Source: Idiomarina aquatica
GTDB taxonomy: Bacteria; Pseudomonadota; Gammaproteobacteria; Enterobacterales; Alteromonadaceae
Assembly: GCF_003987185.1 (NCBI RefSeq)
Contig: NZ_PIPS01000006.1
Span: 1 to 64,000 of the forward strand
Length of the DNA: 64,000 nt
Direction of reading: 5' to 3'
Position numbers and translations under genes: made by a program. The first letter of the stretch is position 1, and each line of letters starts with the position of its first letter. Under the pieces are notes generated by a model. It saw nothing but the letters and a program-made list of their open reading frames with translations. It was not told where the DNA came from and did not search any database. Below, piece by piece: positions 27,304-30,099 of the stretch.

Positions 27304-28056
27304 ATGAATAACCAAGCCGATCCCGTAAACGTTTTATGCATTAAGTGGGGCAATAAATACGGCTCTGACTACGTCAACACGCTGTATTCTATGGTAAGCC
27401 GCAATTTGAGCCGGCCGTTCCGCTTTGTTTGTCTTACTGACGATAATGAAGGCATTCGCAACGAAGTCGAGGTTAAACCGATACCTAAAATTGGTTTTGA
27501 GGACTTTGACAAGCAAGTGCCATGGACCAAAGCACACGGCTGGTTAAAACTGACCTGTTTTGCCAATCCGCTGCATGATTTAAGCGGTCCAACGCTGTTC
27601 CTGGATCTTGATATCGTTATTGTCGGCAGCCTGGATGAGTTCTTTGAGCCGGAAGGCGAATTCCTGGTGATCAAAGAATGGGATAAGTCCGATGCAACCG
27701 GTAATACCTCGGTGTTCCGCTTTGAGGCCGGCGCGCACGAAGATGCACTGGATTATCTTAAGGCTGATCCGAAGAAGGCAACCGAGCCGGTGCGCAACGA
27801 ACAGGAATTTATCACTCAGTTCGTCGACCGCCAGGGTAAATTGAAATACTGGCCGGCACAGTGGTGCCGCAGCTTCAAACGCCACTGCCTGCGTCCATTC
27901 CCGCTCAGCTTCTTCCAGCAGCCGCGGATCCCTGAGGGAGCTAAGGTGATTATTTTCCACGGTAAACCGCATCCTGACGATGCCTTGCGTGGCCGTAGCG
28001 GTAAATGGTACCGCAAGGTATTACCGACGCGTTGGATTGCCGAGTACTGGCGTTAA
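27304..28056 (+). CDS. glycosyltransferase, GT-A fold, probable LPS core
   Basis: From the ATG at 27304 (GGGAG 7 bases upstream) this is a 250-aa protein; an earlier in-frame ATG at 27274 lacks a ribosome site. It starts VNVLCIKWGNKYGSDYVNTLYSMVSRNLSRPFRFVCLTDD, the nucleotide-sugar-binding start of GT-A enzymes. It has the metal-binding motif FLDLDIVIVGSLDEFF (~98-113), then HGKPHPDD near the C terminus. It has no signal peptide and would act at the cytoplasmic face. It sits 2 bases before waaA-kdkA, so addition of a sugar to the LPS inner core is likely. The donor and acceptor cannot be read. Confidence 0.8.
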   Translation: MNNQADPVNVLCIKWGNKYGSDYVNTLYSMVSRNLSRPFRFVCLTDDNEGIRNEVEVKPIPKIGFEDFDKQVPWTKAHGWLKLTCFANPLHDLSGPTLFLDLDIVIVGSLDEFFEPEGEFLVIKEWDKSDATGNTSVFRFEAGAHEDALDYLKADPKKATEPVRNEQEFITQFVDRQGKLKYWPAQWCRSFKRHCLRPFPLSFFQQPRIPEGAKVIIFHGKPHPDDALRGRSGKWYRKVLPTRWIAEYWR

Positions 28057-28058
28057 TT

Positions 28059-30041
28059 ATGCTACGACGGCTGTACGCGGCATTGATGACAGCATTAGTG
28101 CCGCTGTTGGTGCTTTATTTTTGGCTGCGTGGTCGCAAGGACCCAGGTTATCGTCAACATCTGGGTGAACGCTTGGGCTTTACTGCCACTAAAGCTGAGT
28201 ACCAGGGCGGCCTGTTGATTCACAGCGTATCTGTGGGCGAAACACTGGCGGCGAAGGGACTGATAGCACAGTTGTTAGCTGAGTACCCGATGTTGCCCAT
28301 AACCGTTACCTGCATGACGCCGACGGCGCGGCGACTTATCGAAGCACGCTTTGGCGACCGCGTTAACTGTGTCTATTTTCCGCTGGATTATCCCGGTGCG
28401 GTAAAGCGTTTCATTGAGCGACTAGCCCCTCAAGCGGTGTGGTTGATGGAAACAGAACTGTGGCCACGGTTTTTAGACGAATTGAAACGCCGTCGTATTC
28501 CTGTGGCCTTGCTCAATGCCCGCCTATCACAACCGTCGGCCGCGGGTTATCGGCGATTACAGGCACTGTTGCGCCCAGTTTGGCAACAACTGGCGCTGGT
28601 GAGCGCACAAACACAGGCGTCAGCCCGAAGATTCCGAGCGCTCGGTGCACCTGCTGTGACGGTTGATGGTAACTTGAAATTTGATGTTACGGTCACCGAT
28701 GAGCAGCGCTGTCAGGCGCGGACATTTTTTACTGCAGTGGCGGACAAGCCGGTATGGCTTTGTGCCAGCACGCATCCCGGCGAGCATGAGATCATCCTGG
28801 ACGCTTATGCGAAAATTAAGCGGGCATACGATGTTCAACTGGTGATTGCACCCCGCCACCCGGAGCAGTTTGAGCGCGTCGCTGAACTGTTGAATGCAGC
28901 CGGTGTTGATTTTACACGGCGCAGTGAAATTACCGAAATGCCCAACGACGACTCGGTGCTTATCGCCGACTCCATGGGCGAAATGTTGGTTTGGAGCTGC
29001 GCCGCTGACATCAGCTTCGTTGGTGGCAGCTTGATTGAGCGGGGTGGGCATAACCCACTGGAACTGATCGCGGGCGGCAGTGCGGTGCTGTCGGGTCGCT
29101 CGGTGTATAACTTTGCGGAAATCTATCAACAGTTAAACCGTGCCAAAGGTGTACGTTGGGTCGACGATTGCGATACCCTTGTCGATCAAGTCGCTGAGTT
29201 ACTGTCTGACAGCAACACTCGTCAGCAACAGATTGCAGCGGCGCAGAAGGTACTATTACAACACAAAGGTGCGACACAACGTGTCCGGGAAAGGGCCTTG
29301 CAAGCAACTTTTACAGGAAACTTCATGGTAAAAACTCAGACCAACGGCAAAGAGTTTATAAAATTTGATTCAGCGGTTTTGCCGGAGTGTGAAGCGAAAC
29401 ATTTTTCTCCCAAATACTGGCAGCAACAAAAAGCGATTGCCGGTAATTCGACCGGACGGGCTACGGTCTGGTTTATTCAGCAGGGTGATCATGGCATGTT
29501 ATTGCGCCATTATTATCGTGGTGGATTAGTGGGCAAGGTGAATAAAGACCGGTTTTGGCGCGAACCTGAACAGCAAAGCCGTGCGATTCATGAATTTGAT
29601 TTACTGGGTAAATTGGTAGAACTGGGATTACCGGTACCCAAACCGATCGCTGCAAGAATGATTAAAACCGGGCTGTTCAGTTATCGGGCAGATATTTTAG
29701 TTGAGGTGATCCCGGGGGCTATTGATGTTTTCCGGTTGCTGCGTGACAAGCCTTTAACTGCAGAACAATGGCAAACTCTTGGTGCTGCGGTGAAGCAGAT
29801 GCATAACCACAACGTTTATCACTCAGACTTAAACTGTCATAACTTGATGCTGGATGACCAGGACAAAGCATGGATTGTTGACTTTGATAAATGTGGTTTT
29901 AAAGAGCCTGATCAATGGAAGCAGGACAATCTGGCAAGACTGAAACGATCATTAGTGAAAGAAAAGGGTAAGAACGAGTCGTTTTTCTGGAAAGAAAATC
30001 GTGACTGGCCTGAATTTTTAACAGGTTATGAAAAGTCTTAA
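28059..30041 (+). CDS. waaA-kdkA: fused Kdo transferase - Kdo kinase (WaaA-KdkA)
   Basis: One open frame of 660 aa joins two complete LPS enzymes. Residues 1-422 are WaaA: an N-terminal membrane anchor, HSVSVGE with the catalytic Glu 61, CMTPTARRL, PRHPEQFERV and VGGSLIERGGHNPLELIAGG. Residues 423-660 are the Kdo kinase KdkA, with HSDLNCHNLMLD (~588-599) and VDFDKCGF, kinase-like catalytic and metal motifs. WaaA adds Kdo to lipid IVA and KdkA phosphorylates it at position 4. Both halves have normal length and no linker. The kinase's old ATG (29325) and an AGGA six bases before it are still present, so separate KdkA could also be made. The start is ATG at 28059, 2 bases after the glycosyltransferase gene. 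Confidence 0.9.
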   Translation: MLRRLYAALMTALVPLLVLYFWLRGRKDPGYRQHLGERLGFTATKAEYQGGLLIHSVSVGETLAAKGLIAQLLAEYPMLPITVTCMTPTARRLIEARFGDRVNCVYFPLDYPGAVKRFIERLAPQAVWLMETELWPRFLDELKRRRIPVALLNARLSQPSAAGYRRLQALLRPVWQQLALVSAQTQASARRFRALGAPAVTVDGNLKFDVTVTDEQRCQARTFFTAVADKPVWLCASTHPGEHEIILDAYAKIKRAYDVQLVIAPRHPEQFERVAELLNAAGVDFTRRSEITEMPNDDSVLIADSMGEMLVWSCAADISFVGGSLIERGGHNPLELIAGGSAVLSGRSVYNFAEIYQQLNRAKGVRWVDDCDTLVDQVAELLSDSNTRQQQIAAAQKVLLQHKGATQRVRERALQATFTGNFMVKTQTNGKEFIKFDSAVLPECEAKHFSPKYWQQQKAIAGNSTGRATVWFIQQGDHGMLLRHYYRGGLVGKVNKDRFWREPEQQSRAIHEFDLLGKLVELGLPVPKPIAARMIKTGLFSYRADILVEVIPGAIDVFRLLRDKPLTAEQWQTLGAAVKQMHNHNVYHSDLNCHNLMLDDQDKAWIVDFDKCGFKEPDQWKQDNLARLKRSLVKEKGKNESFFWKENRDWPEFLTGYEKS

Positions 30042-30062: not shown

Positions 30063-30099
30063 AAAAAGCCTGCTCAAACAGATGTTGAGCAGGCTTTTT
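30063..30099. terminator. bidirectional terminator between waaA-kdkA and proA
   Basis: A perfect 15-bp stem (AAAAAGCCTGCTCAA, 30063-30077, with its complement at 30085-30099) has a 7-base loop and A/T runs on both outer sides. It therefore works for the plus-strand waaA-kdkA unit and the minus-strand proBA unit that converge here. Confidence 0.92.

Follow-up and report, generated by a model that had tools for sequence, protein, structure and literature searches.

The fused waaA-kdkA locus

The stretch of DNA analysed here (the window) comprises 64,000 nucleotides of a contig from Idiomarina aquatica, in which an open reading frame on the forward strand (28,005-30,041, with ATG 28,059 as the probable WaaA start) joins waaA, for the Kdo transferase, to kdkA, for the Kdo kinase, and contains no internal stop (Table 1). 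The initial annotation had described the transferase as running into the kinase at codon 423 with no stop and no linker, both halves being of normal full length, and these points were borne out: the frame is open throughout, the kinase ATG at 29,325 is codon 423, and profile coverage is near full length on both sides. The WaaA half matches model positions 2-414 of 425 in the NF004388 equivalog at 442.2 bits, narrowly over the cut-off of 438, and scored under the respective cut-offs of the four other listed WaaA models; the KdkA half matches positions 4-237 of 241 in the NF002475 equivalog at 281.6 bits, far over the cut-off of 142. No second match to the fused protein was found in the same genome at E <= 0.001.

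Across 22 fusions, E61 and residues 265-268 and 330-335 of the WaaA half are invariant, within the motifs SVGE, PRHP and GHNPLE that we take to be conserved WaaA motifs, as are H588, D590, N592, C593, N595 and D608-F609-D610 of the KdkA half, presumably its kinase motifs. An AlphaFold2 model built from these 22 fusions (mean pLDDT 89) has a pTM of 0.68, so the relative placement of the two halves is unsure. Its top Foldseek matches are Aquifex WaaA (2xci, ranked first and also found by phmmer at E 1e-24) and 4bfc, and further matches include the LPS kinase WaaP (6dfl) and PRPK (Bud32-type) kinases. The WaaA half closes with its last helix (residues 405-417), and since the joint of about three residues is the sole stretch of that length or longer under pLDDT 50, there is hardly any linker.

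Table 1. Features of the waaA-kdkA region, in positions of the window
Feature	Positions	Strand	Basis
GT8/GT6-like glycosyltransferase gene	27304-28056	+	stop 2 bases before waaA ATG; model fold
waaA-kdkA fused gene, 660 aa (stop in span)	28059-30041	+	open frame; Pfam PF04413 + PF06293; NCBIfam NF004388 + NF002475
WaaA (Kdo transferase) half, residues 1-417	28059-29309	+	NF004388, residues 1-410; Foldseek best match 2xci WaaA
AGGA, Shine-Dalgarno-like site in frame (Gly420 codon GGA)	29315-29318	+	read directly; GGA in 17/17 core Idiomarina
Joint, residues 420-422	29316-29324	+	sole segment of >=3 residues with pLDDT <50
KdkA (Kdo kinase) half from inner ATG, 238 aa (stop in span)	29325-30041	+	NF002475, residues 425-659
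Hairpin GCCTGCTCAA..TTGAGCAGGC then T run, likely terminator	30068-30099	+	by eye; absent from scan's list

For the gene immediately upstream, Pfam and NCBIfam gave nothing at E <= 0.001. In fold, its structural model (pLDDT 78) is similar to glycogenin and further GT8/GT6 enzymes, a likeness compatible with an alpha-glucosyltransferase. Elsewhere in the window, a 5S rRNA at positions 1-107 is the sole Rfam match over its gathering score.

Distribution and history of the fusion

A search for the same fusion in relatives, as the initial annotation had proposed, found it in the same open frame in 18 of the 19 genomes of the genus Idiomarina, that of I. aquatica included; the fusion is old and not peculiar to this genome. 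In the family, at least 34 of 196 genomes, in at least 6 of 52 genera, carry it among the matches listed, counted as full-length stop-free matches, each with a frame of at least 666 aa around KdkA; fusions would rank high in such a listing. Neither the rest of the order (359 genomes outside the family) nor the rest of the class (365 genomes outside the order) gave a full-length match among the matches listed. Long WaaA frames in other families were considered as extra fusions and rejected in the six loci checked (L044, L061, L067, L071, L081 and L084), where the frame stops 11-15 codons past the WaaA match and never reaches a kinase.

A scan of named genomes, in which 51 of 80 loci were examined (the other 29 being WaaA-only matches with enterobacterial titles), returned 43 fused and 8 unfused loci, with fusions also in Pseudidiomarina, Rheinheimera, Alishewanella, Arsukibacterium, Alkalimonas and one Colwellia metagenome-assembled genome (MAG). 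Two more fusions occur in records labelled Betaproteobacteria and Thiomicrospira. The former (L142, 1753-4513, on a contig of 64% GC labelled as a betaproteobacterial MAG) comprises a glycosyltransferase gene and the waaA-kdkA fusion, and may reflect either horizontal transfer of a two-gene unit or a wrong label; the latter (L143, 2459-4462, labelled Thiomicrospira microaerophila) has the fusion without the upstream glycosyltransferase gene. The Colwellia fusion (L148/G065), which has no ATG with a Shine-Dalgarno (SD) site at the joint, stands among Colwellia relatives with separate genes and is probably an independent fusion.

Separate genes also occur close to the fused ones. In Idiomarina tyrosinivorans (G016, L178), waaA ends in TGA and kdkA follows separately, out of frame, behind AAGG-CATTGA-ATG. 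All seven Aliidiomarina-type rows of our tree have separate genes, which adjoin each other in six; the exception is A. indica, whose kdkA is remote from waaA and sits 1.3 kb from the counterpart of the glycosyltransferase gene found upstream of the I. aquatica fusion. In Aliidiomarina quisquiliarum the two genes share a frame and are parted by a stop; in I. tyrosinivorans and A. haloalkalitolerans they are in different frames. Because separate pairs are found in both arrangements, an insertion or deletion is as possible an origin of the fusion as the loss of the waaA stop that the initial annotation had put forward.

In a tree of WaaA plus KdkA with 60 rows (L142, L098 and L102 left out), I. 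tyrosinivorans is nested within fused Idiomarina with support of 100/98, and a clade of fused Idiomarina and Pseudidiomarina without it, a group named after the first tree, was rejected (p-AU 0.017). The fused and separate states change at least four times, and a single origin, examined by uniting every fused ingroup row in one clade, was rejected as well (p-AU 3.5e-13). Since change counts carry no direction, they fit an early single gain followed by losses in Aliidiomarina and I. tyrosinivorans as well as they fit several gains. For I. tyrosinivorans itself, fission is the simplest reading, with repeated gains as the alternative, and an inner start of the kind described below would make such a fission harmless.

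A probable inner start at the joint

The initial annotation had also pointed to an AGGA six bases before the kinase ATG, and reading the sequence gives exactly that spacing, with AACTTC between the two. This arrangement is present at the joint in 17 of 17 core Idiomarina, in whose genes other in-frame ATGs from codon 60 onward have such an SD site in only 4 of 206 cases. For comparison across lineages, 86 fused genes were merged to 70, the criterion being 98% identity across a length above 600 aa. Among these 70 non-redundant fusions, the joint carries an ATG with SD in 44, a TTG with SD in 2, an ATG without SD in 17 and none of these in 7; the 24 without a start that has an SD all lie outside Idiomarina and Pseudidiomarina. 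By set, the joint ATG with SD is found in 17/17 core Idiomarina, 18/18 Pseudidiomarina plus I. xiamenensis, and 9/32 members of the Rheinheimera group. Over 67 of the 70 fusions (without L142, L143 and L148), windows of the same size in other parts of these genes contain an ATG with SD in 1.4-2.3% of cases, and in-frame ATGs elsewhere have such an SD in 14 of 634 (4/206, 5/170 and 5/258 by set). Of 46 long open reading frames in the 64-kb window, 21 have such an SD before their first ATG; of the deep inner ATGs, 18 of 302 do.

The inner SD of the window has an energy of -4.3 kcal/mol and comprises four bases only. The site before the waaA ATG is weaker (-2.2), and the stop of the upstream gene lies 2 bases away there. 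In core Idiomarina, the joint ATG ranks 1 to 4 by SD energy among the in-frame ATGs of its gene, and is thus not always the best of them. Of the 32 Rheinheimera-group fusions, 23 have no joint ATG with SD (two of these having TTG with SD), and a free kinase therefore seems dispensable in them. A promoter within waaA was considered and rejected, as a simple scan of its plus strand found no sigma-70-like candidate.

Constraint on synonymous sites was scanned in five-codon windows. The scan treats species as independent, and 17 species amount to far fewer independent samples, so its ranks weigh more than its z values. In core Idiomarina, the top five of 656 windows begin at codons 416-420 (z 4.4 to 3.8), and the joint holds rank 1 of 662 in the Pseudidiomarina-type set (18 genes, z 6.3) and rank 1 of 673 in the nine Rheinheimera-group fusions with ATG and SD (z 3.2). 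The joint gets no higher than rank 215 of 658 in the 21 start-less fusions of the Rheinheimera group, and 223 of 652 when the 32 members of that group are scanned together. Mean synonymous codon identity in the three start-keeping sets is 38-50%. All 17 core Idiomarina use GGA for the glycine within the SD and also keep the ATG; the 21 remaining columns with an invariant glycine all mix codons, and GGA accounts for 19% of glycine codons. As judged from codon choice, selection acts on the inner start at the DNA level in three sets of relatives. Pseudidiomarina-type fusions show, in addition, a second peak of synonymous constraint near the 3' end, in the window from the codon equivalent to residue 638 (z 5.5).

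We consider it likely that one gene gives two proteins, a bifunctional WaaA-KdkA and a free KdkA from the inner start. Translation from 28,059 would yield the bifunctional enzyme of about 75 kDa, which would place one Kdo on lipid IVA and then a phosphate at O-4 of that Kdo, and ribosomes initiating in frame at the SD and ATG of the joint would add free KdkA of about 27 kDa. We infer use of the inner start, and free KdkA would, on this reading, add kinase capacity or partner the upstream glycosyltransferase; the kinase is thus probably also made alone. Both the bifunctional enzyme and the separately started KdkA proposed in the initial annotation are supported, by the conserved inner start, the separate genes of I. 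tyrosinivorans and one chemotype of lipooligosaccharide (LOS), described below.

The same motif could instead be a relic, with the fused protein as the only product and AGGA and ATG left over from a former kdkA start; the 21 Rheinheimera-group fusions that exist and persist with no start that has an SD at the joint are in keeping with this. A relic, however, would be expected to decay, as it has in the start-less lineages, whereas the joint has the most conserved synonymous sites only in the three start-keeping sets, at a mean synonymous codon identity of 38-50%, and we regard this explanation as improbable. AGGA also sits exactly at the domain joint, where it might cause an elongation pause that aids folding of the halves and not serve as a start. 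A pause needs no ATG, yet the ATG is kept alongside the SD in 17/17 and 18/18 genes, and Pseudidiomarina retains an SD-ATG pair even with another position, spacing and linker length, which makes a pause very unlikely. Finally, the fusion might be an artefact of sequencing or assembly in this one genome, for example the missed base that the initial annotation had asked about. Error is ruled out because the open frame recurs in 18 of 19 Idiomarina genomes, and with 43 of 51 named loci fused it is refuted for the lineage; we give it virtually no probability.

Core chemistry, the upstream glycosyltransferase and known systems

For Idiomarina zobellii KMM 231, the published LOS structure reads alpha-Neu-(2->6)-alpha-Glc-(1->5)-alpha-Kdo4P-(2->6)-lipid A, with one Kdo, a phosphate at O-4 and heptose absent (PMC9695755). 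The genome of this strain (L111) yields a single KdkA match at E <= 1e-5, located in a fused frame, and is identical over 4977 bases to the locus of G018, where the fused gene is the sole WaaA/KdkA match. The searches thus leave the fused gene as sole candidate for the kinase step in KMM 231, and since its LOS carries a single Kdo4P, the fusion probably performs both reactions, transfer and phosphorylation; Kdo4P is compatible with either fused or free KdkA as the kinase.

The same two activities act on one Kdo in Haemophilus, Bordetella and Aeromonas, where WaaA and KdkA are encoded by separate genes (in Aeromonas, for example, kdkA lies beside waaC), unlike the one frame of Idiomarina. According to the respective reports, Bordetella pertussis has a single Kdo, phosphorylated at position 4 (PMC10743493), the KdkA phosphate of Haemophilus replaces a second Kdo (PMC3078933), and Kdo-P is present in Aeromonas (PMC5372535). 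In B. pertussis, kdtA and kdkA are reported to be inactivated only when the bifunctional Kdo transferase of E. coli is supplied (PMC10743493), from which it follows that capping of Kdo, by phosphate or by a second Kdo, matters.

The upstream glycosyltransferase gene, with its GT8/GT6-like modelled fold, is a candidate for the alpha-1,5-glucosyltransferase acting on Kdo in a core without heptose. It accompanies 45 of the 46 fusions that have the inner start and 1 of the 24 that do not, so that 68 of 70 agree (the gene was scored as present from flanking sequence nearby or from the whole genome, and as absent from a search of the whole genome). L142, which has the glycosyltransferase gene and no ATG with SD at the joint, is one of the two exceptions. 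The association is not significant by phylogeny, since four independent contrasts (three agreeing, none opposing and one tie) give a median p of 0.25; with only these four contrasts, common descent could explain it. Furthermore, among 20 genomes, the heptosyltransferase family PF01075 is found in none of the 10 with the glycosyltransferase gene (G000, G018, G017, G044, G118, G137, G160, G059, G097 and G099) and in 6 of the 10 without it (G016, G080, G035, G113, G062 and G151). The remaining 4 of the 20, two Aliidiomarina-type and two Arsukibacterium-type, have neither. In I. tyrosinivorans, which lacks this glycosyltransferase gene, a PF01075 gene adjoins kdkA, and the neighbours in that region, by eye, are presumably gmhB and hldE. 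We read these patterns as two core types, one heptose-less with glucosyltransferase and inner start, the other heptosylated without either.

Two products from one frame are known from other systems, and WaaA and KdkA are themselves known enzymes. In type III secretion, SctQ (YscQ, HrcQ) is described as made both in full length and as a C-terminal part, SctQ-C, from an inner in-frame start (PMC4295842; PMC8553256); there, the short form has been shown to be made and is a partner that the long form requires for assembly or stability, as opposed to a pair of pathway enzymes. Cas11b likewise arises within cas8b from an inner in-frame methionine as a second, shorter protein; it belongs to an archaeal CRISPR interference complex, and its peptides are reported to have been identified by mass spectrometry (PMC11899642). 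A conserved in-frame ATG with SD, constrained as DNA, marks inner-start genes of the SctQ and Cas11 kind, and the joint carries one. As a bifunctional enzyme of the LPS core, WahA of Aeromonas is comparable in joining two core-sugar activities in one polypeptide, in its case a glycosyltransferase and a deacetylase, with no inner start mentioned in the accessible part of the source (PMC5372535). In the accessible literature, with most subscription journals outside its scope, we found no description of the WaaA-KdkA fusion, of its spread or of its tie to core type.

A possible though doubtful extension of the two-product reading is a two-gene, three-product operon, in which glucosyltransferase, fusion and free KdkA would together make a complete inner core without heptose, alpha-Glc(1->5)-Kdo4P-lipid A, and the glucosyltransferase would be the reason why the free kinase is selected; lineages with a heptosyltransferase in its place would have neither glucosyltransferase nor inner start. 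If this were true, core chemistry would set whether one frame gives one or two proteins. Annotation that assigns one protein to each frame would overlook the second product, and relatives that have kept the inner start or do without it offer ready pairs for the question of tethered and free enzymes. A natural fusion of transfer and capping, as found in these bacteria, shows one route by which uncapped Kdo may be avoided.
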